DNA from: Cloacibacillus porcorum
GTDB lineage: Bacteria; Synergistota; Synergistia; Synergistales; Synergistaceae
DNA: 64,000 nt
Direction of reading: 5' to 3'
Assembly: GCF_001701045.1 (NCBI RefSeq)
Contig: NZ_CP016757.1
Span: 124,001 to 188,000 of the forward strand
Part shown: positions 1 to 12,564 of the stretch, piece by piece
How positions within the stretch are numbered: the stretch's first letter is position 1
Layout of the letters: every line of letters begins with the position of its first letter
Translations under genes and position numbers: made by a program
The notes under the pieces: generated by a model
The model's input: the letters and a program-made list of their open reading frames with translations, nothing else
Database searches by the model: none
What the model was told of the DNA's origin: nothing

Positions 1-485
1 AGATCCTCTTTGATTCGGCGGTGGCCTCTTCCGTCCTCATGCTCGTCGTCGGGATGGCAACGGCCCTTTCCAGAATTCTGACCATTTTGCAGATCCCCCA
101 GGCGATCGCTAATGAATTGACCGCCATGACCTCCAATAAGATCATCATCCTTCTGCTGCTCAATCTCCTCTTGTTGTTCGTAGGCTGTCTGATGGATCTT
201 GGCGCGGCGGTCGTCATGTTCGTACCGTGTCTTTTGCCCCTAGCCGAACAGTTGGGCTTAAATCTCGTCCATTTCGGCGCGATGGTCACGATCAACCTGA
301 TAATCGGTTTCTTCACTCCCCCCGTCGGCGTATGCCTCTATGTGGGGACCAGTGTCGGCAATGTAACGATAGAGGAGTTATGTAAGGTCATAATGCCCTT
401 TGTGGTGATTGGGATAGCGCTCGCTTTGATCGTCACCTTCGTTCCCGCCGTAACTCTCTGGCTGCCGACGATGATGGGATATTGA
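1..485 (+). CDS. TRAP transporter large permease (DctM-type), 3' part only
   Basis: This is the C-terminal end of a TRAP dicarboxylate-type large membrane subunit; the reading frame is open from base 3, so the gene begins before the window. About 160 residues remain. They form three or four hydrophobic helices and include the stretch FFTPPVGVCLYVG, which is typical of the last part of DctM proteins. DctM forms the Na+-coupled membrane channel that works with the periplasmic binding protein encoded 72 bp downstream. It heads the catabolic locus that runs to 11221, so the pair probably imports the substrate of that locus. The substrate cannot be read from the sequence. Confidence 0.9.
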   Translation, partial: ILFDSAVASSVLMLVVGMATALSRILTILQIPQAIANELTAMTSNKIIILLLLNLLLLFVGCLMDLGAAVVMFVPCLLPLAEQLGLNLVHFGAMVTINLIIGFFTPPVGVCLYVGTSVGNVTIEELCKVIMPFVVIGIALALIVTFVPAVTLWLPTMMGY

Positions 486-557
486 AGTTATTATCTTTGC
501 GCACTCTATGTTACAAAAAATATAGTGAAAAACAAAAACGCTAGGAGGGAAATTGTA

Positions 558-1616
558 ATGAAAAAAGGAAGAGGTCTATTCATTATCGCGCAGATGTTGG
601 TTGTTATCCTGCTGTTTGTCTCGTGTGCCGCGGCGGCTCCCGCGAAACCGGAATATGAATGGAAATACGGAGAGGCTTTGGGGCCCAAACATCCGCTGAC
701 GATCGGCGCCCGGGCCTTCGCGGACAAACTCGGCGAATTGACGAACGGACGTGTGAAACTGACGGTTTATGACAGCGGCTCGCTCGGTACGATCCAGGAA
801 CTGATCGAAGGCGTCGACATCGGCTCCATTGAGTTCATAGACGTGTCTATGGCGCCGCTCTCTACTTTCTCGTCAAAATTTTACGCCTTCAATCTGCCCT
901 ATCTATTCAACAATGTAGACGTCGCCTATGCTTTCGAGGACGGGCCGATGGGGCAGGAGCTTAAGGGGCCGGTCGGCAAAAGCGGCATAAGCGTCATTGG
1001 CTTTATGGAAAACGGGATGCGCTCTCTTACCAGCAATGTGCGCATAGTAGAGCCAAAGGATGTTGTCGGCCGGAAGATCAGGACAATGTCAAACAAAGTC
1101 CATATGACGGCCTTCGAGAAGGCGGGCGCCTCCGCGGTGCCGATGGTCTTCAGCGAACTATTTACGGCTCTTCAGCAGAATGTCATTGACGGACAGGAAA
1201 ATCCGCTGCTTAACATTCAGGATATGAGTTTCTACGAAGTCCAGAAGTATCTGACGCTGACGGAACATTTCTACGACATTACAGTTTTCTGTGTAAATAC
1301 GAAACTTTACAACTCCGTGCCCGCGGACATCCGCGCCGCGATTGACGAGGCTGCCGCCTACATGACGGAGGTCCACCGCCGGGAGTGCATAAAACAAAAC
1401 GATAACGTCCTGGATTTCTTCAAACAGAAAAGCAAGATGGAAATCATACGTTTGACCCCGGAACAGAAAGCGGCCTGGAAAAAGGCGATGATGCCGACAT
1501 ACGACATTTATAGAAAAGAGATCGGCGCCGAATACCTGGATAAAGTTATCGCCGAGGTCGCCCGTCTGCAGGCGCAATATGACGCCGGCAAGCTTGACAC
1601 CTCCCGCTGGAGGTAA
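558..1616 (+). CDS. TRAP transporter solute-binding protein (DctP family)
   Basis: Periplasmic binding protein of a tripartite (TRAP) importer, about 352 aa. The start at 558 is chosen because AGGAGGG lies 8 bases upstream; an earlier in-frame codon at 525 lacks this. The N-terminus (MKKGRGLFIIAQMLVVILLF) is a signal sequence, and the following VSC could be a weak lipobox. The body shows family landmarks: GPKHPLTIGARAFADKLGE near the start, the central LPYLF segment and GQENPLLNIQ, where DctP proteins usually bind the carboxylate. The gene follows dctM and precedes the glycyl-radical enzyme, so its ligand is probably an organic acid degraded by the genes downstream. The ligand is not identified. 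Confidence 0.93.
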   Translation: MKKGRGLFIIAQMLVVILLFVSCAAAAPAKPEYEWKYGEALGPKHPLTIGARAFADKLGELTNGRVKLTVYDSGSLGTIQELIEGVDIGSIEFIDVSMAPLSTFSSKFYAFNLPYLFNNVDVAYAFEDGPMGQELKGPVGKSGISVIGFMENGMRSLTSNVRIVEPKDVVGRKIRTMSNKVHMTAFEKAGASAVPMVFSELFTALQQNVIDGQENPLLNIQDMSFYEVQKYLTLTEHFYDITVFCVNTKLYNSVPADIRAAIDEAAAYMTEVHRRECIKQNDNVLDFFKQKSKMEIIRLTPEQKAAWKKAMMPTYDIYRKEIGAEYLDKVIAEVARLQAQYDAGKLDTSRWR

Positions 1617-1704
1617 GGCGGCCGCCGTTTGAAGGACGATACGCCTGACGGCGGCGGGCAGATCAAAGCGGTTGTCCCGTGTGCTGAGAGGGCGGCTGAT
1701 GCGG

Positions 1705-1732
1705 GATACTCTCTGATTTCGCAGAGAGTATC
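1705..1732 (+). other. stem-loop in the dctP-GRE intergenic
   Basis: A perfect 11-bp stem (GATACTCTCTG with CAGAGAGTATC) and a 6-base loop lie 40 bases before the start of the glycyl-radical enzyme. No T run follows, so it is not an ordinary terminator. It could be an mRNA stability or processing element separating transporter from enzyme expression. Confidence 0.5.
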
Positions 1733-1772
1733 TCCATCTTACAAAAAACAGGCTGGAAAGCGAGGTATAGAG

Positions 1773-4343
1773 ATGTCTCAGACTGTTACACAGAAAAAGA
1801 CGGGCGGTGCGCTGGGGCTTGATATCCGTTCCGGAAAAGTGGCAAAAACTGGAAGTACAAAACGTATACAAGAGTTAAACGGGCTCCTGCACGCTACCCG
1901 TCCGAGCATTGATATACAGCGCGCCAGAGCGTTTACAAAGGTCTACCGGGAGACTGAAGGGGAGCCGGAGCTGCTTCGCCGGTATAAGGCCAGCGCGGAG
2001 ATGTACCGGTCCTTCAAACCGGTCATTTATGACCATGAACGGCTGGCCGGTTGGGCGGCGGGCAAAATCAGGGGCGCCCAGATATGCCTCGATACCCACG
2101 CGCATTGGATCGGCGACGATCTGGACGCGCTGGAGACCCGCATGTACGACCCGTTCGTCGTGCCTGACGAATATAAGAAAGAGCTGAAAGAGGTACATAT
2201 TCCCTATTGGAAGGATAAAACCATAACGGCGCTGCTCATAAAACAGCTGCCCATCGACCCCGACCTTGTCATCGGCGGCGTTGTCGGTGAGGTGGATATC
2301 GCAAACTACCTCAATAACTGCGGCTCTCATTTCATCGCGGATTTCCCGACACTGATGGAAAAGGGCGTTCGGTATTACTATGAGACCGCCCAGGAGCAGC
2401 TCAATAAATTGGATCTGAACGTCCCCGAATCCCTGGATAAACGTCTGTTCTACATAGGCATATCCGAAGTCTGTCTGGCGATAAAGCAGTTTGCGGAAAA
2501 TTACGCCGCCGCCGCGTCGGAGAAAGCGCGCAGAGAGACAGATCCGGTCCGCAAGCAGGAGCTGCTTGATATGGAAAAGGTTATGAGGCAGGTCCCCTGG
2601 AATCCCCCGCGCAGCTTCTACGAGGCGATAGAAATGGCCTGGCTGGTCGTCATGTTCCAGTTTATGGAGGGGGCCGGTCCCTCCGCCACACACGGCCGTT
2701 TTGACCAGTATATGTATCCCTTTTACCGGCAGGGAATCGCCGACGGGACGCTCACTCCCGAACTGGCCATGGAGTTTATCGAGGAGCTGTATATCAAATG
2801 CACGTCGAACCCGTGGTTCGTCTCGACGCCCAGATCGCATATCGTCGGCGGTTACTATCGTTACGCCCATGTGGATGTCGGCGGCCTTGACAAACACGGA
2901 CATGACGCGACGAACGAACTATCCTACCTCTGCCTGCGGGCCATGCGCTATGTCAAAACGAACGCGCCGACCGTCAGCATCCTGCTGCACCAGAAAACGC
3001 CGGACTCCCTGCTTTATGAGGCCTGCGCTCTCGCCGCGGAGGGTATGGGGCATCCGTCGTTTTTTAACTGCGAGACCCTGTATGACATGCTGGAGGGCCG
3101 CGCCGCCGGACTGCACGGGAAAAGCCCCTACACGAGAAGGCAGATACTTGAATACGGCGGCCCGATCGGGTGCGTCGAAGTCGGCCTTGCGGGACACCAG
3201 TTCGGCCACACGGAGGCGGGGAACGTCAACATCCCCGAGTGCTGCAACCTGGTTTTGTTCAACGGCGAGAAAAACGGCAGGCTTATAAGCATCCGCACGG
3301 GAGACCCCACGCAGCTCAAAACATTTGAGGAATTTCTCGCGGCGGTCAAGGCGCAGATAGCGCACACGATCGATATCTGCCACATCGGCCTGACGGTCGG
3401 CGAAAAAATCATCGCGGAGCGTTTTGCCCTTCCGACCTTCACCATGTTCTGCCGCGACGCGGTTTTGCGGGGCAAAGACGTTACTCAGGGCGGAGCCTAC
3501 TGCAATATCGGCCCCTCAGTACAGATAATGGGGCTGGGTACGCTGATCGATTCTCTGGCCGCGATCAAGAAGGTCGTATATGAGGATAAAGAGGCGACGA
3601 TCGCGGATATTCGGGCCGCGATTGAGGCAGATTTCGCGGGATACGAGGAATTGCGCGCCAAACTCAGGAAGGCCCCGAAGTACGGCAATAACGACGATTA
3701 TGCCGACAGCATCGGGATCGACCTGTGGGAATTCTGCGCCGATGAGGTACGCTCTCATAAAACATATCTGGGGCATTATGCGGACCCGGGAATCAAGACG
3801 GTACAGGCCAACGTAGGATACGGCGAGTCTACCCGCGCGACGCCGGACGGCCGCCTCGCCGGTTCTCCCTTTTCCGATACGATGTCCGCCTCTCAGCAGG
3901 CCGACATCCACGGCCCGGTGGCCGCCGCGATGAGCTATGGAAAGTTTGATTTTTCCCTCTTCACAAACGGTACGCTTCTGAACATGTGGGTGAACCGCGG
4001 CGAGCTGATCGAGGAAGATCTTGAACGGGACGACCGGGCGGAGAGCCTTCCCCCGTTCGGTATGCCCGCCGTCAATACGCCGGAGGGGACCTATGTCGAA
4101 CCCGTTTATAAACCGGCTGGCATGAGAAACCTTGCGAACCTGGTCCGCACGATGCTCAACGACATGGGCATCTACCATGTGCAGTTCAATACGGTGAATA
4201 AGAAAACGCTGTTGGAGGCGCAGAAAAATCCGGAAAAATATCCGACGCTGATCGTACGGGTGGCGGGATACAGCGCCTATTGGACCGACCTCGGAGTAAA
4301 GACGCAGAACGATATCATCAACCGCACCGAACATAATTTTTAA
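1773..4343 (+). CDS. glycyl-radical enzyme, eliminase type, substrate unknown
   Basis: Glycyl-radical enzyme of the pyruvate formate-lyase superfamily, 856 aa from the ATG at 1773 (GAGG seven bases upstream). The C-terminal radical loop reads RVAGYSAYW, with the radical glycine about 30 residues from the end. The active-site loop is GPIGCVEVG, with Cys467 and Glu469. The Cys-x-Glu arrangement is shared by diol dehydratases, choline TMA-lyase, hydroxyproline dehydratase, isethionate lyase and hydroxyphenylacetate decarboxylase, so radical elimination or lysis is expected rather than pyruvate cleavage or fumarate addition. The cognate activase follows at 4419. The neighbouring aldehyde dehydrogenase would fit an aldehyde product. 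The specificity is not identified from sequence; the Val-Gly after Glu469 may help a subfamily comparison. Confidence 0.9.
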   Translation: MSQTVTQKKTGGALGLDIRSGKVAKTGSTKRIQELNGLLHATRPSIDIQRARAFTKVYRETEGEPELLRRYKASAEMYRSFKPVIYDHERLAGWAAGKIRGAQICLDTHAHWIGDDLDALETRMYDPFVVPDEYKKELKEVHIPYWKDKTITALLIKQLPIDPDLVIGGVVGEVDIANYLNNCGSHFIADFPTLMEKGVRYYYETAQEQLNKLDLNVPESLDKRLFYIGISEVCLAIKQFAENYAAAASEKARRETDPVRKQELLDMEKVMRQVPWNPPRSFYEAIEMAWLVVMFQFMEGAGPSATHGRFDQYMYPFYRQGIADGTLTPELAMEFIEELYIKCTSNPWFVSTPRSHIVGGYYRYAHVDVGGLDKHGHDATNELSYLCLRAMRYVKTNAPTVSILLHQKTPDSLLYEACALAAEGMGHPSFFNCETLYDMLEGRAAGLHGKSPYTRRQILEYGGPIGCVEVGLAGHQFGHTEAGNVNIPECCNLVLFNGEKNGRLISIRTGDPTQLKTFEEFLAAVKAQIAHTIDICHIGLTVGEKIIAERFALPTFTMFCRDAVLRGKDVTQGGAYCNIGPSVQIMGLGTLIDSLAAIKKVVYEDKEATIADIRAAIEADFAGYEELRAKLRKAPKYGNNDDYADSIGIDLWEFCADEVRSHKTYLGHYADPGIKTVQANVGYGESTRATPDGRLAGSPFSDTMSASQQADIHGPVAAAMSYGKFDFSLFTNGTLLNMWVNRGELIEEDLERDDRAESLPPFGMPAVNTPEGTYVEPVYKPAGMRNLANLVRTMLNDMGIYHVQFNTVNKKTLLEAQKNPEKYPTLIVRVAGYSAYWTDLGVKTQNDIINRTEHNF

Positions 4344-4418
4344 AGGCCGGCCATTTTTGTCAAATGCCGGGCGTCTGAGAAGGGCCGTACATTATTATCC
4401 GGGAAGGGAGGCAGCCTC

Positions 4419-5390
4419 ATGGCAGAGAACAGGGCGGAGAAAACGGCGATTATTTACGATATCGAGGGTTATCGCAACGAAGACGGCCCCGGAATGAGGA
4501 CCATGGTTTTCTTTAAAGGCTGCCCGTTGAGATGTATGTGGTGCAGCAATCCCTTTGGCCTGAGTATGGAGCCGCAGCTTATTTTCAATCAGAATAAATG
4601 CGGCGGCTGCGGAAAGTGCCTTGACCTCTGTCCGGCTTCGGCGAACAGTTTTGAAGAGGGCGGGATACGGATGGATTTTGCGCGCTGTACCGGCTGCGGA
4701 AAATGTATCGCTCCCTGCGTAACGGACGCGAGGAGAATGTCCGGAGAACAATATACGGTCTCGGAGTTGTTTAAAGAGGTTCAAAAACATGCGCTGTTCT
4801 TTCGCAGGAACAGCGGCGGAGTTTCGCTGTCGGGAGGGGAGGTGCTGCTGCAGAGTGAATTTGCCTCGGATTTTCTGCGGGTCTGCCGCGCGAATTATCT
4901 CCATACCACGATAGAGACGTCAGGATATGCGGAATGGGAAAAATTTGAAAGTGTGGCACGGTACTGCGACCTCGTTTTTTTTGATTTAAAGATCTTTGAC
5001 GCCGGTATCCATAAAAAATACACCGGCGTGGACAATAAAATAATACTTCAAAATATGGAGAAGCTATGTTCCCTTGCGAAGGCGAAGGGCAGCCCCAACG
5101 TTATTATTCGCCGGCTGATAATAGAGGGCGTTACGGCCGAGGAGGATATCATCCAGGCGGCGAAGTTTGTAAACGAACTGCCTGTCCATCCGGAAATCAA
5201 CCTGCTTCCCTTCCACAATTTCGGCGCGGCAAAGTATGCCATGTGCGGGCGGGAGTATCAGATGGAAGAAAAGGCGCTGATGGGTGTCAACGACGCGCTG
5301 ATGCGGCGCGCGCGGGAATTGACGGTACGGAATGCGCCGAATTGCCGCGTCAGCGTCGGCGGCGGAAATATCGAAGGCGCCGCCCTCTGA
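4419..5390 (+). CDS. glycyl-radical enzyme activating enzyme (radical SAM)
   Basis: Activase that installs the glycyl radical on the upstream enzyme using S-adenosylmethionine and an iron-sulfur cluster, 323 aa. The radical SAM motif CPLRCMWC gives Cys35, Cys39 and Cys42. Two ferredoxin-like Cys clusters follow (CGGCGKCLDLCP and CTGCGKC), as in the long activases of the choline-lyase, dehydratase and decarboxylase classes; pyruvate formate-lyase activase lacks them. SLSGGEVLLQ matches the conserved GGE motif of radical SAM proteins. GGGAAGGGAGG precedes the ATG, and the gap after the glycyl-radical enzyme is 75 bp, so the two genes are probably one operon. Confidence 0.95.
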   Translation: MAENRAEKTAIIYDIEGYRNEDGPGMRTMVFFKGCPLRCMWCSNPFGLSMEPQLIFNQNKCGGCGKCLDLCPASANSFEEGGIRMDFARCTGCGKCIAPCVTDARRMSGEQYTVSELFKEVQKHALFFRRNSGGVSLSGGEVLLQSEFASDFLRVCRANYLHTTIETSGYAEWEKFESVARYCDLVFFDLKIFDAGIHKKYTGVDNKIILQNMEKLCSLAKAKGSPNVIIRRLIIEGVTAEEDIIQAAKFVNELPVHPEINLLPFHNFGAAKYAMCGREYQMEEKALMGVNDALMRRARELTVRNAPNCRVSVGGGNIEGAAL

Positions 5391-5632
5391 CAGGCGCGGC
5401 AAAACATTTTACAGGGATTTTAGTCTTTCCCTTTCCTTAACAGGCAGCGCCCCGAACAAAACATGCAGGCGGAAAAGGCGGCCGCCGCTGAATACGTACA
5501 AGGTTTAAAAAGTCCAAATAAAGGAAGTGACGGCCTGACGGCTCTTATGCCGAGCCGACGAAGAGGTAACTTTAAGGCGGCACACGAAGGTTATTGGCTT
5601 ATGGATGTCTATTCCAAGGAGGCGTGATAGAG
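5391..5632. other. intergenic, possible structured leader
   Basis: This 242-bp gap between the activase and the dehydrogenase has no convincing gene. It contains a short GGCTC/GAGCC hairpin near 5540-5565 and several GC-rich repeats. I could not match it to a known riboswitch class. Confidence 0.3.
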
Positions 5633-6520
5633 ATGGTTTTAGGATATATAGGTTTTGGCGAAGCCGCGTTTGAGATGAGCACGGGGCTAAGGGGCGAAGG
5701 GCTCAAGGATATTGTCGCGTTTGACAATATGATAGAACATCCGGTCTTCGGCCCGCAAATAAAAAACCGCGCCGGGCTGTCGGCGGTCAAACTTCTTCCT
5801 TCGGCCGCGGAGGTTATCGCCGCGAGCGACCTGGTCATGGTAGCGGTCCCGGCGAGCGTCACGCTGCACACCTGCGAGACGATCGCGGAATATTTCCGCC
5901 CTGGACAGCTTTACGTCGATCTCACGGCGGCCTCCCCCGCCGTCAAGAAGGCCGCGGCGCTGCTGGCCGGTAAATATGGCGCCGATTTTGTTGATGCCGC
6001 GATGATGGGGGTATTGCCCAAATTCAAACACAAAGTTCCCATCCTGGCGTCGGGAGCGGGAGCCGCCCGTTTCTTTGAAACGATGTCTCCCTATGGGATG
6101 AAAATCGAGATCGTCGGCGACGAGCCGGGCGCGGCCTCGGGAATTAAACTGGTGCGCAGCTTATGTATGAAGGGTATGGCGGCCGTAGTGATGGAGACGC
6201 TGGAGGCGGCCGTCACACTGGGCATCGCGGACCGGGTAGTTCCGGGCATCTGCAAAACTTTAGAGGAATGCACCTTCGAGCAGACGCTGGACCGCCTCTC
6301 CGTCGGCACCGCGCTGCATGCGGCAAGGCGCACCGCGGAACTTTCCGGCTGCATGGAAATGCTCCGTGACGCGGGCATAGACAGCACAGTCGCGGAAGCC
6401 GCCTCTAAAAAACACGACCTGATCGCCAAACTTAATCTTAAAGAGCATTTCGCGGAAAAGCCGCCTCACGCTTGGCCGGAGGTAATTGAGGCCGTCGTAA
6501 ATTCAAATAGCGGGAAATAA
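5633..6520 (+). CDS. NAD(P)-dependent beta-hydroxyacid dehydrogenase-like protein (DUF1932 type)
   Basis: About 295 aa from the ATG at 5633, which has AAGGAGG ten bases upstream. The N-terminus LGYIGFGEAAFEM is the dinucleotide-binding loop of the 6-phosphogluconate / 3-hydroxyisobutyrate dehydrogenase family. VDLTAASP corresponds to the substrate-binding motif, and GIKLVRSLCMKG supplies the catalytic lysine of the helical domain. The C-terminal part resembles DUF1932 proteins. The family oxidises beta-hydroxy acids or reduces the matching oxo acids. In nicotinate fermentation a relative handles 2-(hydroxymethyl)glutarate, which is relevant because the next gene resembles methylitaconate isomerase. 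The exact substrate is unknown. Confidence 0.85.
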   Translation: MVLGYIGFGEAAFEMSTGLRGEGLKDIVAFDNMIEHPVFGPQIKNRAGLSAVKLLPSAAEVIAASDLVMVAVPASVTLHTCETIAEYFRPGQLYVDLTAASPAVKKAAALLAGKYGADFVDAAMMGVLPKFKHKVPILASGAGAARFFETMSPYGMKIEIVGDEPGAASGIKLVRSLCMKGMAAVVMETLEAAVTLGIADRVVPGICKTLEECTFEQTLDRLSVGTALHAARRTAELSGCMEMLRDAGIDSTVAEAASKKHDLIAKLNLKEHFAEKPPHAWPEVIEAVVNSNSGK

Positions 6521-6625
6521 CTGATCGGAGAGCCAGGCTCTTACAGGCAAAGCGGCTGAAGCCCTCACGGGATTATTGATACACGCCGCAATAGACAAAT
6601 TGCATCAGGAAAGGGAGGCTGCGTT

Positions 6626-7795
6626 ATGAAGCCGAATACAAAAATACCGTGCGTTTTCATGCGGGGCGGAACGAGCAAGGCGCTGTTCTTTCATGAAAAA
6701 GACCTGCCGGAAGACGAAAGCCTGCGCGACAAGATAATATTGAGCGCGCTGGGCAGCCCAGACGTCCGCCAAATTGACGGCATGGGCGGCGGGACGACGA
6801 CGACAAGCAAAGTCGCCATAATAAAGAAAAGCTCCCGGGAAGGGGTGGACATAGACTACACTTTCCGTCAGGTGAGCCCCGAAAGCTCAATCGTAGGCAA
6901 GACGATGAACTGCGGGAATATATCTTCGGCCGTGGGTCCATTTGCCATTGATGAAGGACTTGTGGAGGCGGTGGAGCCCGTCACAAGCGTCCGGGTTTTC
7001 AACACGAACACCAATAAGCTTATGGTCCTGCACGTTCCCGTCGGGAACGGACGCGCTTTGACGGAGGGAAATTTTGAGATAGACGGCGTGCCGGGTACCG
7101 GCGCTAAGATACAGATAGAATTCAGCAATCCTCAGGGAGCGGTGTCGGGCAGGCTGCTGCCCACCGGCAGCCCGCTTGATACGATCGTCATCGACGGAAA
7201 GACCTATGAATACTCACTTTTGGACGTAGGCAACCCCACCGTATTTGTGCGCGCCGAGCAGTTCGGCCTCAGCGGGCTCGAGCTTCCGGCTGAATTTGAG
7301 GCGCTGCCCAACAGCGGCGAAATATGCAGGCTTCTTGAGATAATCCGCGGCACATGCGCCATTTCACTGGGCCTCGCGAGCGACCTTGAAGATGCGGCGG
7401 TCAACAGCCAAACGCTGCCGAAAATCTCCCTCTGTACGACGTCGAAGGACTATACCGCGGGCGACGGCCGCCTCATCAAAAAAGAGAGCGTCGACTATGT
7501 GGGGCGGATGTTCTCCCTGGGTATGAAAATGATTCAGGCGCACATGGCCTTACCGGGAATTTGCGCGCTGGCGGCGGCCAATCTTCCCGGCTCCGTGATC
7601 AACAGGCTGCTGCACGAGAGTTCATGCGGCGGGGCAAAATTCGAGAGCCTACGCATCGGCCACCCATTCGGCATCATGGAGGTCGACGGACGTTTGGCGG
7701 AAAACGCCGAAGGCGGATACGACGTCACCTGCGGGATGATCGGCCGTACCGCCAGACGCCTGATGGAAGGTTTCGTATATGTACGGGAAGGGTAG
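6626..7795 (+). CDS. PrpF / 3-methylitaconate isomerase family protein
   Basis: 389 aa, ATG at 6626 after AAAGGGAGG. The start IPCVFMRGGTSKALFF is the hallmark of PrpF-family proteins, which move a double bond in unsaturated di- or tricarboxylates (2-methylaconitate isomerase, 3-methylitaconate isomerase, oxalomesaconate tautomerase). GGGTTTTSKVAII and the internal MNCGNISSAVGPFA carry the lysine and cysteine regions expected to do the proton shuttle. No prpB or prpC (methylcitrate cycle) gene is nearby, so a methylcitrate role is not supported. With the aconitase-like pair downstream, it probably prepares an unsaturated acid for hydration. The substrate is inferred only at the level of an unsaturated carboxylate. 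Confidence 0.87.
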   Translation: MKPNTKIPCVFMRGGTSKALFFHEKDLPEDESLRDKIILSALGSPDVRQIDGMGGGTTTTSKVAIIKKSSREGVDIDYTFRQVSPESSIVGKTMNCGNISSAVGPFAIDEGLVEAVEPVTSVRVFNTNTNKLMVLHVPVGNGRALTEGNFEIDGVPGTGAKIQIEFSNPQGAVSGRLLPTGSPLDTIVIDGKTYEYSLLDVGNPTVFVRAEQFGLSGLELPAEFEALPNSGEICRLLEIIRGTCAISLGLASDLEDAAVNSQTLPKISLCTTSKDYTAGDGRLIKKESVDYVGRMFSLGMKMIQAHMALPGICALAAANLPGSVINRLLHESSCGGAKFESLRIGHPFGIMEVDGRLAENAEGGYDVTCGMIGRTARRLMEGFVYVREG

Positions 7796-7806
7796 GTAAT
7801 ACAAAG

Positions 7807-9246
7807 ATGAGAGAATATAAACTTTATATCAACGGCGAGTGGATAGAGACAGAGACCGGTAAAATCGTCGACGATCTGAACCCGGCGGATGGTTCGTTGT
7901 TCGCGCGCGTTCACACGGCGGGTAAAAAAGAGGTCGAAGCCGCGCTGGCGGCGGCGGAGGGTGCGTTTGCGGGATGGTCCTCGCTCCTTGCGAGCCAGAG
8001 AGAGAAGATACTGCTGAAAGCCGCCGATAATATCGAGGCGCTGCGGGAAGAGGCGATCGAGATACTGATCGAAGAGGCGGGCTCTACCTTCATGAAGGCA
8101 AACGGAGAGGTCACCGCCTCCGCGAACACACTCCGCGTCGCGGCGGGAGAATGCCGCCGGGCCGAAGGAGAGGTCCTTCAGCCGACGTCTAATGGGCAGC
8201 TTTCCCTCGCGGTACGCGTGCCGCTCGGCGTAGTCGCGGCGATCGCGCCGTTCAATTTCCCGATCAACATCACTATGAAAAAAATCGCTTATGCGCTGGC
8301 CATTGGAAATACCATAGTCCTGAAACCAGCCTCTTACACCCCCGCGACGGGTTATCTCGTCGCCAAGGCCTTCGAGATGGCCGGACTGCCGGCCGGCGTG
8401 CTGAACGTCATTCCGGGGCCGGGAGGCATAGTCGGCGATATCCTGGTAGAGGACCCCCGCGTCAAATGCGTGACCTTTACCGGCTCCAGCCCCGTAGGAC
8501 GCGGCATTGCGGCAAAGGCCGCCAAGAATCTGAAAAAATACGCGCTGGAACTGGGCGGCAAGAACCCTCTGATCGTACTGAAAGATTTCGACGCGGCTAA
8601 GGCCGCCGAACTGGCCGCTTACGGATCCTTCTACAATCAGGGACAGACCTGCATAGCCACCTCGCGTATCATTGTGGAGGAACCTCTGTACGATGCTGTT
8701 TGTGAACAAATGCTCAAACAGGCGAAAAACTTCAAGGTCGGCGACCCGCACGAGAAAGATACGCTCGTCGGTCCGCTGATCGATCCATCCCAGTGTGATT
8801 TCATTGACGGGCAGATCAGAGACGCCCTCTCTAAAGGCGCCAAAGTCCTCTGCGGCGGCACGCACGAAGGCTCCTTCTTCCAGCCCACCATTCTCGCGGA
8901 TGTGACGCCGGAGATGGATATCTTCTATCAGGAAAGTTTCGGCCCTGTCGTCTCCATTTTCCGCGCGAAGGACCCGGCGCACGCCCTGGAGCTGGCGAAC
9001 GATAACGAGTACGGCCTTTCGTCGAGCATACTGACCAACGATTTGAATCTTGCCATTCAGCTGAGCCTCAAGATGCAGGCCGGGATGGTCCACGTCAACG
9101 ACTCGACGGTCGTCAGCACGAGCTGCACCGCTCCGTCGGGAGGCGTAAAGATGAGCGGCTTCGCCAAGGAGAGCGGAAAGTTTTCCGTGGACGTGTACTC
9201 GGAGCTTAAATGGGTGACGCTCCAATACGCGGATAAAAAAAGATAA
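7807..9246 (+). CDS. NAD(P)-dependent aldehyde dehydrogenase
   Basis: 479 aa from the ATG at 7807, only 11 bases after the isomerase stop; a longer reading frame upstream is overlap with that gene. Family motifs are clear: FNFPINITMKK in the cofactor-binding region, FTGSSPVG, catalytic Glu248 in LELGGKNPL and catalytic Cys282 in NQGQTCIATS. This is the acid-forming (hydrolytic) aldehyde dehydrogenase type, not the CoA-acylating AdhE type. It could oxidise an aldehyde released by the glycyl-radical enzyme. By eye it resembles the broad vanillin, benzaldehyde and semialdehyde group, which is not enough to name the substrate. Confidence 0.93.
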   Translation: MREYKLYINGEWIETETGKIVDDLNPADGSLFARVHTAGKKEVEAALAAAEGAFAGWSSLLASQREKILLKAADNIEALREEAIEILIEEAGSTFMKANGEVTASANTLRVAAGECRRAEGEVLQPTSNGQLSLAVRVPLGVVAAIAPFNFPINITMKKIAYALAIGNTIVLKPASYTPATGYLVAKAFEMAGLPAGVLNVIPGPGGIVGDILVEDPRVKCVTFTGSSPVGRGIAAKAAKNLKKYALELGGKNPLIVLKDFDAAKAAELAAYGSFYNQGQTCIATSRIIVEEPLYDAVCEQMLKQAKNFKVGDPHEKDTLVGPLIDPSQCDFIDGQIRDALSKGAKVLCGGTHEGSFFQPTILADVTPEMDIFYQESFGPVVSIFRAKDPAHALELANDNEYGLSSSILTNDLNLAIQLSLKMQAGMVHVNDSTVVSTSCTAPSGGVKMSGFAKESGKFSVDVYSELKWVTLQYADKKR

Positions 9247-9421
9247 TATAAATACAGGTCCGTCGCGGAAGCCGCCCCGTGAGGGGAAATAAGCGGTATA
9301 AATCAGCTTTTGGCGGCGTCCGCGGCGGGACCGGCGAGGCGGTAAAATTTCTAATGCCGCGCATGATACTTTTCTAAAAATAGAGCAGCCTTTACCCTAC
9401 AATGTGTTTGGAGGTATCAGT
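9247..9421. other. intergenic with long imperfect inverted repeat
   Basis: Between the aldehyde dehydrogenase and the hydratase lies an imperfect inverted repeat with arms GGTCCGTCGCGG (near 9257) and CCGCGGCGGGACC (near 9320). It may moderate read-through inside the operon. No gene is visible. Confidence 0.3.
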
Positions 9422-10678
9422 TTGAAAACTTTGACTGAAAAAATATTTGCCCGTGCTTTGAAACGAGAGACGGTTAAGGCAAACGACATCGTCAACGTTC
9501 CCGTAGATCGTCTGCTTATCAACGACTTTGTCGGCGCGATCGTTTTCCGCCATTTTGAATCGCTGGGCGCGGAGGCGGTGGTAAATCCGGACAACATATT
9601 GCTCGGCATAGACCACCGCATCCCTCCGGCGGAGATAAAGTTCGCCGACAGCCTTAAATTCTGCCGGGATAAGTGCAGACAGTACCACATCGAACGTTTT
9701 GCGGAGATCGGACGGCACGGCATCGGACATCAGCTGATGGTCCAAGATTTTGTCCTGCCGGGAGAGGTGGCTCTGGGGACGGATTCGCATTCCACCATGT
9801 ACGGCGGCATCGGCGCATTCGCGACCGGCATTACCTCCTCCGACGCGGCCATCATTATGGCTACCGGGGAAATATGGCTGCAGGTCCCGGCATCGATCCG
9901 TGTAAATGTACGCGGTCAATTAAATAAGGGCGTAACGGCCAAAGATCTTTCTCTTAAAGTCCTTACGCTGGCGCCTCTCCACACGTTTATCTATAAGGCG
10001 ATAGAGCTTGGCGGAGAGGGCATCGAGGCGCTTAGCATCTCCGGCCGTTTGGCCGCCGCCAACATGCTGGCGGAAACCGGCGCGAAGAATATTATCATGG
10101 CCGCGGATGAAAAGACGGCGGCGTTTATCGGAAAACCATCCGGCGAGCTGCAGATGGACAGGCCGGACGCGGATGCGCAGTATGAAACGACATATGAAGT
10201 CGATGCCTCGGAGCTGCCGCCGCTGCTCTCCTATCCGCATACGCCTGAAAACGTAAAACCAATCGGCGAGGGGGCGGAGGGGCTGCCGATCCACCAGGCC
10301 TTCATCGGCTCCTGCGCTAACGGACGTATTGAAGATCTCGAACAGGCGCTCGAAATTTTACGCGGCCGCAAAGTGCATAAAGACGTCAGGCTGATCGTAG
10401 TGCCGGCTAGCCAGAAGGTTATGCTGGAGGCTACGCGCCGCGGCCTTGTGGAAGAACTTCTTGTCGCCGGGGCGGCGATAATGACCCCGAGCTGCGCCTC
10501 CTGCGCCGGCTCCGGCCCCGGGCTCATCGGCGCGGGGGAACGCTGTATCAGCACGACGAACCGTAACTTCAAAGGGAGAATGGGCAACACGGAATCCGAG
10601 GTCTTTCTCGGCTCCGCCTATGCGGTTGCCGCCGCGGCCGTTTGTGGTTATATCACCGATCCCAGGCAATTCCTTTAA
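9422..10678 (+). CDS. aconitase-family hydratase, large subunit (LeuC/DmdA-like)
   Basis: Large subunit of a two-subunit [4Fe-4S] hydro-lyase of the isopropylmalate isomerase / homoaconitase / dimethylmaleate hydratase group, 418 aa. The TTG at 9422 is chosen because GGAGG lies seven bases before it and the protein then begins KTLTEKIFARAL as LeuC proteins do. Cluster cysteines are Cys298 (GSCANG), Cys358 and Cys361 (PSCASC). GTDSHSTMYGGIGAFATG is the conserved substrate-side loop. The small subunit follows 15 bases after the stop. No other leucine genes are present, and the PrpF-like isomerase context argues for hydration of an unsaturated diacid. True leucine biosynthesis cannot be formally excluded. 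Confidence 0.9.
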   Translation: MKTLTEKIFARALKRETVKANDIVNVPVDRLLINDFVGAIVFRHFESLGAEAVVNPDNILLGIDHRIPPAEIKFADSLKFCRDKCRQYHIERFAEIGRHGIGHQLMVQDFVLPGEVALGTDSHSTMYGGIGAFATGITSSDAAIIMATGEIWLQVPASIRVNVRGQLNKGVTAKDLSLKVLTLAPLHTFIYKAIELGGEGIEALSISGRLAAANMLAETGAKNIIMAADEKTAAFIGKPSGELQMDRPDADAQYETTYEVDASELPPLLSYPHTPENVKPIGEGAEGLPIHQAFIGSCANGRIEDLEQALEILRGRKVHKDVRLIVVPASQKVMLEATRRGLVEELLVAGAAIMTPSCASCAGSGPGLIGAGERCISTTNRNFKGRMGNTESEVFLGSAYAVAAAAVCGYITDPRQFL

Positions 10679-10693
10679 GGGGGGAAGATAACC

Positions 10694-11221
10694 GTGAAAG
10701 AGATTATAACCGGCACCGTGTGGACATGCGGTGACAATGTTTCGACATATCATATCATCGGGAAAAAACGGTGGACCTTGACGGGCGTCGACCAGGAAGA
10801 ACTGGGGAAATGGGCCTTTGAAGGCGCCGTCAAAGAGATTGAAGACGTCCCGTTCGGTTTTCGTGACCTCGGATATACCATCATCGTGGCGGGACATGAT
10901 TTTTGCGGCGGCGGCAAAAGCATAGAACATCCTATCGCGGCGATGCAGGGCGCGGGCGTGCAGCTGATACTGGCGGAATCTTTCTCCCGTTACGGGTTTC
11001 GAAACGCTATCAACAGGGCGCTGCCGGCCATTACCTGTCCTGGGATCGGCAAAGTTTTCAAAACGGGAGACCGCTTGGAGGCCAATCTGCTGACAGGTGA
11101 GATCAGCAACCTCACGACCGGCGGACGAATCTCGGGCATCCCGCTTTCAGACTATATCCTCAAGTTGATCTCCGCCGGCGGCCTGCTTCAGTATTATCGC
11201 AACATCCTGCGTCAAAAATAG
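10694..11221 (+). CDS. aconitase-family hydratase, small subunit (LeuD/DmdB-like)
   Basis: Swivel-domain subunit that pairs with the large subunit just upstream, 175 aa, GTG start at 10694 after a G-rich SD. The segment GHDFCGGGKSIEHP matches the conserved loop of LeuD-type proteins, and AESFSRYGFRNAINRALPAI is the usual second block. The length fits archaeal-type LeuD or homoaconitase small subunits rather than the longer enterobacterial LeuD. It is the last gene of the one-directional catabolic locus. Confidence 0.9.
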   Translation: MKEIITGTVWTCGDNVSTYHIIGKKRWTLTGVDQEELGKWAFEGAVKEIEDVPFGFRDLGYTIIVAGHDFCGGGKSIEHPIAAMQGAGVQLILAESFSRYGFRNAINRALPAITCPGIGKVFKTGDRLEANLLTGEISNLTTGGRISGIPLSDYILKLISAGGLLQYYRNILRQK

Positions 11222-11458: not shown

Positions 11459-12310
11459 CTACTGTATATAATAGTCGGACTTGCTCAGGATGTCGTTGGC
11501 AATGTCCAGACGTGGCTTAATGATCGAAGCGTACCTTACTGACGCTACGTTGATCAGGCAGTCGACGAGCATCATCGCGGAAAGCGGTGAATTATGAAAT
11601 CCCAAGCTGCTGCATAAACAGGGCAGGGTGATGTCCGAGTATTCGGCAAACGGCGAGGTGAAGCTGTCGGTTACCATTACCACCTTGGCCTGCGCCTGGT
11701 GCGCCAACTTGACAAACTGCAGCAGCCTATTGGCGTAGCGGGGAAAGCTGATCGCAAAGACAAGATCCGTCGGCCCGAGGCAGGGGATAATTGTCGACCA
11801 GACGGGAAGATTGTCAGCGTGTATTATCTGGCAGTTACCAAACATGCGGGACAAAAAGCTGTACATATACTGCGCGACCATTATCCCGCCTCTGGCGGTC
11901 GTTATATAGATCATGGGGGCGGAAACTATTTCCGCGACCACGTTGTCGAGGGTCTCTTGGGGTATCAGTTCGAAGGTGTTCTGTATGTTATTCAGCTGTT
12001 TGTCGTAGCATCTGCCCCACAAATCGGAGAGGTCGAGATCTTTGAGATTCACTTCAAGACGTGTCTTTGGGTTTACCTTGTTTCTCAGCACCTCTTGCAA
12101 TGCCCTCTGGAAATCCATATATCCCTTATAGTTCAGGAACGTCATTAAACGCATAATCGTCGTCGTGCTCGTCCCCGCGGCGTTGGCAAGCTGATCAACG
12201 GTAAAAAAGGCCGTGTCGAAGGTGTTTTTAAGGATAAAATCCGCGACCTTCTTCTGTGCCGCCGTCATATTGTTTATCCCATTTTTCAGTTTTTCAATGG
12301 GTCCATGCAT
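11459..12310 (-). CDS. RpiR-family transcriptional regulator
   Basis: About 283 aa from the ATG at 12310, which has GGGGAGAG upstream; a longer frame adds 11 residues without an SD. The N-terminal domain (roughly residues 1-77) has the RpiR helix-turn-helix, including TVDQLANAAGTSTTTIMRLM. The rest is a SIS-type ligand domain, with ITTARGGIMVAQ and VFAISFPRYANR as its sugar- or acid-phosphate-like binding loops. It converges on the catabolic locus and is the obvious candidate regulator of it, although RpiR proteins can also act elsewhere. The ligand is unknown. Confidence 0.9.
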   Translation of the reverse strand: MHGPIEKLKNGINNMTAAQKKVADFILKNTFDTAFFTVDQLANAAGTSTTTIMRLMTFLNYKGYMDFQRALQEVLRNKVNPKTRLEVNLKDLDLSDLWGRCYDKQLNNIQNTFELIPQETLDNVVAEIVSAPMIYITTARGGIMVAQYMYSFLSRMFGNCQIIHADNLPVWSTIIPCLGPTDLVFAISFPRYANRLLQFVKLAHQAQAKVVMVTDSFTSPFAEYSDITLPCLCSSLGFHNSPLSAMMLVDCLINVASVRYASIIKPRLDIANDILSKSDYYIQ

Positions 12311-12564
12311 TAAAAGATCTCTCCCCGTCTGGGCGTTAAGCACGAAATACTGCCATCACATCATGCGTATCTTCTACTTTATTAAAAACTTTTTCTTTAT
12401 AACTTATACCCGAAGTGAACGTTAGTGTCAAGAGAAGTTAGCAATATCACTTTCTGTAAGTTTGCCATATAGAGCATGGAAATTATGATGTTAAAGTAAA
12501 TGCAGTAAAAAGTCTTAGAAGTGAAAGATTGGAAGCTTTTATCCCGCCGCCTTTACGGCGCGCA

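Follow-up and report, generated by a model that had tools for sequence, protein, structure and literature searches.

The closest precedent for a glycyl radical enzyme (GRE) that works in two pieces is YfiD (GrcA) serving truncated pyruvate formate-lyase (PFL). As reported in the portions of PMC8683613 that cover this pair, PFL truncated to residues 1-695 is catalytically functional, with YfiD supplying the radical domain in vitro, and YfiD has a lower affinity for this form than for the longer, oxygen-cleaved one. In models of ordinary GREs, by the account in part of PMC10239695, the radical domain must swing out of the barrel for charging by the activase, and the same passages place the radical domain of benzylsuccinate synthase-type enzymes at the C-terminus of the large chain. 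No description of a naturally split GRE was found among the open-access papers listed in searches on GREs, and one may exist elsewhere; in the accessible part of PMC11528403, an aminoacyl-radical paper, "split" refers only to electron paramagnetic resonance splittings. Here, we analyzed a 64,000-nucleotide stretch of the Cloacibacillus porcorum genome (the window, G000:C1:124001-188000, from a genome of 3,585,187 bases on one contig) containing a GRE gene that is very probably the re-fused form of a gene split in its relatives, a relationship that lies beyond the preliminary description of this DNA. The split genes resemble the YfiD pairing in that a free glycyl-radical protein would complement a barrel without its own radical domain, whereas the cited portions of PMC8683613 concern rescue of oxygen-cleaved PFL or of an engineered truncation and the genes found here are paired in genomes and encode a small protein that fails the GrcA models. 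They likewise share with benzylsuccinate synthase and other multi-subunit GREs the use of more than one polypeptide, but their radical domain is the small chain.

The window GRE carries a PFL-like barrel, the catalytic Cys467 and a glycyl-radical domain with Gly832, the features by which a GRE is recognized, and its parts are as follows.

1773..4343, plus strand: fused GRE of 856 amino acids (PF02901, 4.5e-159; PF01228, 6.2e-22); best start 1773
3171-3173, 3177-3179 and 3213-3215, plus strand: codons of Cys467, Glu469 and Glu481
4017..4061, plus strand: fusion linker, residues 749-763, limits approximate; in relatives this place is taken by a stop codon, a gap and a fresh start
4062..4340, plus strand: glycyl-radical domain, corresponding to the separate small subunit found in relatives (aligned with nine such subunits)
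4062-4064 and 4266-4268, plus strand: in-frame ATG of Met764 and codon of the radical Gly832

Barrel and radical domain share a single chain in the window and in one Synergistales relative (L010), the only fused members of the clade, while ten intact copies in nine other genomes divide the enzyme between one gene for a catalytic chain of about 750 amino acids and another for a glycyl-radical protein of 91-104 amino acids. The relatives were recovered by scanning peptide patterns from the window GRE over a collection of species genomes, which yielded 38 loci. Nine of these (L010-L018, 41-70% identical) form a clade with the window on a long stem (support 100/100) that spans Synergistota, Bacillota, Thermodesulfobacteriota and Actinomycetota, whereas the 37 GRE rows outside it are about one-third identical or below and all single-chain. 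By its sequence and place in the tree, the window GRE is a member of a rare, uncharacterized clade. The gene is split at eight of the nine loci (L011-L018, giving nine pairs, as L011 holds two), an activase homologue adjoins it at all nine, and three split members belong to the named strains Vagococcus acidifermentans, Paradesulfitobacterium ferrireducens and Eubacterium ramulus.

At the split loci the catalytic frame stops soon after a stretch like 'NGTLLNMWISRSEL', and the glycyl-radical domain follows in a second, short frame. Across the nine junctions, the stop is TGA, TAG or TAA, the gap to the first ATG is 2-64 nt, the small open reading frames encode 91-102 amino acids, and relative frames 0, +1 and +2 are all represented, with both genes in the same frame in three of the nine. 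Judged by eye, the spacers differ from one another and a GGAG core precedes the small gene at eight junctions (at L017, before the second ATG), with a weaker purine run at L018. We discarded selenocysteine insertion and readthrough as explanations of the junction, as each of the three stop codons and every frame offset is represented. In the five pairs compared, drawn from six of the nine copies, purifying selection acts on the small and the catalytic gene (pN/pS 0.04-0.16 for the small gene and 0.13-0.22 for the catalytic gene); in the L014/L015 pair, dN is 0.028 and dS 1.71 for the small gene against 0.084 and 1.32 for the catalytic gene, synonymous sites being saturated in most other comparisons. 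At L011:3023-9308, tandem split GREs flank one activase; after them come a gene for a PrdR-like sigma-54 regulator (below cut-off) and one for a BaiCD-like flavoenzyme.

Further split genes were sought with a small-subunit profile of eleven rows (A2; nine small subunits and two fused domains), run at E 1e-24 on samples from two phyla (388 and 297 genomes). It matched 38 and 29 genomes, six of them in a short free frame of 92-113 amino acids: G181, G185 and G186, known before, and G1332, G1529 and G1138. Five free clade small subunits scored 146-177 bits, against at most 106.3 bits for the radical domains of full-length GREs. The locus in G1332 (L137) holds the tenth intact split pair, with a 51-nt gap, a small protein of 104 amino acids and a good ribosome-binding site. 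In G1138, a split GRE lies outside the clade (L139:5973-8620); its 765-residue catalytic chain is 29% identical to the window GRE and sits in the tree next to L020 (92/91) on a long branch, and its small gene starts at an ATG 89 nt past the catalytic stop, behind a stretch resembling a ribosome-binding site, and scores 94.9 bits with A2, inside the range of full-length GREs. Its neighbors are ABC transporter genes, a periplasmic binding protein and an activase. As read from these genes and the tree, this is a second, separate case of a split GRE, of a type that rests on a single genome. Two more short A2 frames were noted near contig starts (257 amino acids in G1043 and 157 in G1336), and L138:9823-12529 (G1529) combines an intact small radical gene with a catalytic gene spread over three frames, through decay or poor assembly.

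Searches with the full-length GRE at E 1e-140 to 1e-150 added no members among 179 other genomes of the window's order, 199 others in the sampled family of G187, 72 others in the order of G185, 38 others in the order of G182 and 197 others in the sampled order of G180, and they returned only G183 and G184 among 249 genomes of the sampled class of G184. Ten plasmid records matching the GRE at E 1e-100 were set aside as non-members, being about 32% identical and, where annotated, labeled cutC or 'glycyl radical protein'.

The position and the construction of the fused pair both point to re-fusion. The window and L010 are sisters (100/100) within a five-row group that also holds three split copies (100/100), and the states in the tree are explained by one gain of the split and one reversal. 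The connector (between residues 739 and 783) has 43 residues in the window and 42 in L010. Of 27 ordinary GREs, 25 have 10 residues there and the other two have 8 and 12. In the fused pair the connector reads as the end of the catalytic chain, followed by a variable linker and the beginning of the small subunit ('NTPEGTY.EP.YK.AG'). Moreover, both fused genes keep an in-frame ATG near the start of the small gene, Met764 in the window without a ribosome-binding site at the normal distance, and in L010 with GGAG five bases upstream. The pair is read as re-fused because it is nested among split copies, has this long connector and retains the ATG, and on these grounds we regard an ancestrally split clade with re-fusion in the window lineage as very probable. 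Just upstream of the fused GRE in L010 lies a gene for a 398-residue protein (L010:8778-9971) that matches nothing in Pfam at 1e-5 or in NCBIfam at 1e-10.

The placement of the GRE outside the characterized subfamilies, as the preliminary description had it, held against the NCBIfam models, all of whose characterized-subfamily cut-offs were missed (best 522.7 bits against 678.2, every equivalog further below). The failed models include choline trimethylamine-lyase CutC (TIGR04394, 509.7 against 1050), trans-4-hydroxy-L-proline dehydratase HypD (NF043068, 451.2 against 1100) and (2S)-3-sulfopropanediol dehydratase (NF048011, 506.1, and NF048009, 422.2, each against 1000). Isethionate sulfite-lyase, a placement that the preliminary description named as one that would refute its reading, gave 358.7 bits by sequence (7kq3) and Z 42.2 at 31% identity, and the NCBIfam list contained no match to an isethionate model. 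An AlphaFold2 model of the window GRE (pLDDT 92.5, pTM 0.93; stretches of at least three residues with pLDDT below 50 only at 1-5 and 750-757) is closest among solved folds to CutC, N-methyl-hydroxyproline dehydratase and the propanediol and glycerol dehydratases (Z 46.5-47.9). CutC and the propanediol/glycerol dehydratases are alike in the whole fold (33-35% and 32-33% identity) and in the Cys-x-Glu motif, but they are single chains whose pocket residues differ.

In the propanediol and glycerol dehydratases, the pocket is built from Cys-x-Glu, an acid 14 residues beyond the cysteine and the histidine of a GHS motif. The Cys-x-Glu motif of the window GRE, correctly numbered Cys467/Glu469 in the preliminary description, is conserved in 11 of 11 clade rows; Glu469 and Glu481 align with propanediol dehydratase 9rco, Glu481 with one of its aspartates. 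No clade row departs from Arg100, His479 and Thr480, which occur in 0, 1 and 5, respectively, of 27 other GREs (several gapped at 100). With Cys467, Glu469 and Glu481 in diol-dehydratase positions, the enzyme would act on an imported hydroxy acid, removing water or a similar leaving group and yielding a carbonyl product. An acid substrate for the clade GRE is suggested because neighboring genes handle organic acids: TRAP-like genes (tripartite ATP-independent periplasmic transport) lie near the GRE in the window, L010, L016 and L017; major facilitator superfamily genes at L011 and L013 (both below model cut-offs) and at L016 (recognized by eye, with no model matching at 1e-20); CaiB-type CoA-transferase genes at L013, L014, L016 and, by eye, L015; crotonase genes at L014, L016 and, by eye, L015; and a BaiCD-like flavoenzyme, below cut-off, at L011 and L017. 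We consider it likely that the two-piece, re-fused architecture goes together with some Cys-x-Glu lyase reaction, and lean slightly toward a dehydratase-type lyase with its own distinct pocket.

The surrounding genes named in the preliminary description are all present, in one direction from TRAP importer through GRE, activase and lower enzymes to LeuCD with an opposed RpiR gene, and their Pfam and NCBIfam matches are far above chance, those of the DUF1932 and LeuD proteins being weaker.

3..485, plus strand: TRAP large permease DctM, C-terminal part; gene start lies left of the window
525..1616, plus strand: TRAP solute-binding protein DctP (TIGR00787, 223.7 bits, cut-off 175.05)
4419..5390, plus strand: radical S-adenosylmethionine activase of the GRE (TIGR02494, 292.7 bits, cut-off 174.35)
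5633..6520, plus strand: DUF1932 beta-hydroxyacid-type dehydrogenase (PF09130, 31.9 bits, cut-off 25, E 1.3e-7, a weaker match; structure 3qsg, 121.5 bits)
6626..7795, plus strand: PrpF-family isomerase (PF04303, 3.8e-109), closest solved structure Mii (3g7k, 300.6 bits)
7807..9246, plus strand: acid-forming aldehyde dehydrogenase (PF00171, Aldedh, 2.4e-160; no NCBIfam cut-off reached among the best 25 of 44 families)
9404..10678, plus strand: LeuC-type hydratase large subunit (NF001614, 482.1 bits, cut-off 385)
10694..11221, plus strand: LeuD/DmdB-type hydratase small subunit (TIGR02087, 97.9 bits, below cut-off 108.95; E 5.8e-5 Pfam and 4.9e-28 NCBIfam, a weaker match)
11459..12343, minus strand: RpiR-family regulator (PF01418 and PF01380 above cut-off)

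DctM and DctQ extend the TRAP run leftward beyond the window edge. Also just left of the window, on the minus strand, lies an RraA/CHA-aldolase-like gene (NF004850, 243.1 bits, cut-off 231; CHA aldolase 3noj, 112.1 bits); this gene and DctQ are further additions to the preliminary description. Still further left, L008:948-8106 holds a second TRAP set with genes resembling D-2-hydroxyacid dehydrogenase, iron alcohol dehydrogenase and galactonate dehydratase (314.4 bits, cut-off 311), perhaps a sugar-acid pathway. The genome contains seven GRE genes, two of which form a tandem pair at G000:C1:982309-986632. Within the window, neither promoter-like sites (12 against 8.6 expected) nor terminator-like sites (13 against 14.8 expected) clearly exceed chance.

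The likeness to the lower pathway of nicotinate fermentation (Mii, DmdAB, Hgd) holds in part. The isomerase is nearest Mii and the hydratase is of the LeuC/LeuD type, as proposed, but the dehydrogenase resembles Hgd distantly, at superfamily level only (Hgd structure 3cky, 30.2 bits, against 121.5 for 3qsg; NCBIfam HIBADH failed at 24 against 291.6 bits), and the locus differs in having a GRE. The preliminary description noted the absence of a B12 mutase and of dimethylmalate lyase; no B12 mutase is seen and the window's locus has no such lyase, but a lyase candidate, the RraA/CHA-aldolase-family gene, lies just outside. In the lower pathway of gallate and protocatechuate-4,5 degradation, oxalomesaconate tautomerase and a hydratase precede CHA aldolase, and that hydratase belongs to another family than the LeuC/LeuD type of the window. 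That pathway and the window's locus are alike in combining a PrpF-family isomerase, a hydratase and a nearby RraA/CHA-aldolase-like gene; they differ in that the window's aldolase gene is on the other strand and its isomerase falls below both the PrpF cut-off and the oxalomesaconate tautomerase cut-off (305.3 against 440).

Elsewhere, the DUF1932 dehydrogenase has matches in 33 of 178 genomes (C. porcorum included) and adjoins an RraA-family gene in two of four regions (G107 and G120, not G113 or G110); such pairs of a DUF1932 dehydrogenase and an RraA/CHA-aldolase-like gene stand at L103:6899-8505 and L104:8263-9862, in two genomes. Such adjacency may link the window's dehydrogenase to the RraA gene at its left, whose product may be the missing lyase. 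At this locus only, the aldehyde dehydrogenase would form an acid, the Mii-like isomerase would move its double bond, LeuCD would hydrate it, the DUF1932 dehydrogenase would oxidize the product, and the RraA-type aldolase encoded outside the window could perform a final cleavage. This order of steps, from elimination through oxidation, double-bond shift, hydration and a second oxidation to aldol cleavage, is reasonable, and we hold it doubtfully.

Several points weigh against the reading as a whole. The clade is small, and the peptide patterns that recovered it came from the window GRE itself. Two backbone forks are supported at just 88/87 and 84/87 (the wider one at 100/98 in another tree). 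Forcing the split rows into one clade that excludes the window and L010 made the tree 31 log units worse, with an approximately unbiased (AU) p-value of 0.0197 that is generous because the group was named after the first tree, whereas the test presumes a group named beforehand. Docking of the small protein into the barrel is itself an inference. Failure at subfamily cut-offs by itself assigns the GRE no function, and CutC, a C-N lyase, tops both its sequence and its fold matches, though its Z is tied with those of 5i2g and 1r8w. Residue 481 is not uniform in the clade (glutamate in 2, aspartate in 7, serine in 1 and asparagine in 1 of 11), and the histidine of the 9rco GHS motif is a proline in the window GRE; the diol-dehydratase pocket is therefore not intact. 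Finally, homologues of the dehydrogenase, PrpF, aldehyde dehydrogenase, LeuC, LeuD and RpiR proteins were found by tblastn (E 1e-3) at none of the 11 other clade loci, which are 5-23 kb long, the L010 stretch ending 866 nt beyond its activase.

The alternatives best able to survive concern function. The GRE could be a decarboxylase, a C-N or C-S lyase, a fumarate-adding enzyme or a B12-free carbon-skeleton mutase replacing that of the nicotinate pathway, rather than a dehydratase; the primacy of CutC, the adjoining Mii- and LeuCD-like enzymes, the constancy of Arg100 and His479, and the CoA-transferase genes beside four relatives, with crotonase beside three of them, which suggest an acid product, all lend this some weight. 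Cys-x-Glu in every clade row and an acid at 481 in nine, as in diol dehydratases, speak for dehydration instead; this family of possibilities ranks as a minority view beside a dehydratase-type lyase.

No more probable than that is the alternative in which the GRE and its activase merely stand beside a separate pathway of dehydrogenase, Mii-like isomerase, aldehyde dehydrogenase and LeuCD. The preliminary description had pointed to conservation of the nine-gene order in other genomes as a check on the locus, and this did not bear out: with no tblastn match at the 11 clade loci, a conserved link between GRE and lower enzymes is not seen. There is, in addition, a gap of 242 nt between activase and dehydrogenase, and close Mii homologues occur near MmgE/PrpD genes in Synergistales genomes without a match to this GRE. 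PrpF homologues at 55-65% identity, in C. porcorum and other Synergistales, have matches in 31 of 178 genomes, and MmgE/PrpD proteins lie near them in six of seven regions (L086-L088 and L090-L092, L089 being left out of that test). In C. porcorum itself, about 656 kb along, L086:7018-13750 encodes another Mii-like isomerase (64-65% identical) among genes for TRAP, iron alcohol dehydrogenase and MmgE/PrpD proteins, and similar sets occur in other Synergistales. For a single pathway stand the shared direction of all the genes and terminator-like signals at or below chance.

The alternatives that concern architecture fare worse. That the fused form is ancestral and the clade split several times independently draws on the fused state of all 37 GRE rows outside the clade, on L139, where splitting recurred, and on the moderate, post hoc AU result; against it, several parallel splits at one place would be needed, and the fused connector joins the catalytic tail, a linker and the head of the small subunit, retaining an ATG close to where the small gene used to start. 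We judge it improbable. Still less probable is a role for the small protein as an ordinary repair part of the GrcA/YfiD kind next to a damaged GRE. A model of one small subunit (pLDDT 75.4) does fold most like the structured part of YfiD (best match 6owr, E 3.2e-4), but ten proteins, the nine small subunits and the window domain, missed GrcA, GrcA2 and GrcA3 alike (best 56.0 against 170, 69.4 against 145 and 84.7 against 158), and the neighboring catalytic chains end ahead of the radical domain and therefore have none of their own to repair. That a single gene only looks split, through assembly error, pseudogene formation, readthrough or programmed frameshifting, as metagenome-assembled sources for several loci, the shared frame at three of nine junctions and the three-frame catalytic gene of L138 might suggest, is scarcely credible for nine copies that share a junction with differing stops, all frame offsets, an own ATG, mostly clear Shine-Dalgarno sites and dissimilar spacers (by eye), with both halves under purifying selection in the pairs compared and three members from named strains.

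Returning to the ancestrally split clade, the activase would place the radical on the glycine of the small protein, which once charged would dock into the barrel and hand the radical to the catalytic cysteine, like the tethered domain of ordinary GREs; in the Synergistales copies, loss of a stop codon would have merged the two genes. We tentatively propose, as a possibility somewhat short of even, that the small subunit is an exchangeable radical cartridge, charged free in solution, docked and replaced after oxygen cleavage, which arose in at least two splittings (the clade and L139) and was re-fused in Synergistales.

Annotation may mistake such catalytic chains for truncated GREs, since the glycine would be absent from them. 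A natural GRE with a separate radical protein would make the charging step directly open to study, as charging, measurement and exchange could each be done on the small piece alone, with the fused Synergistales gene as a convenient single-chain control, and the two-piece enzyme offers a template for modular radical catalysts. If the cartridge reading is true, glycyl radical chemistry runs constitutively in two pieces.

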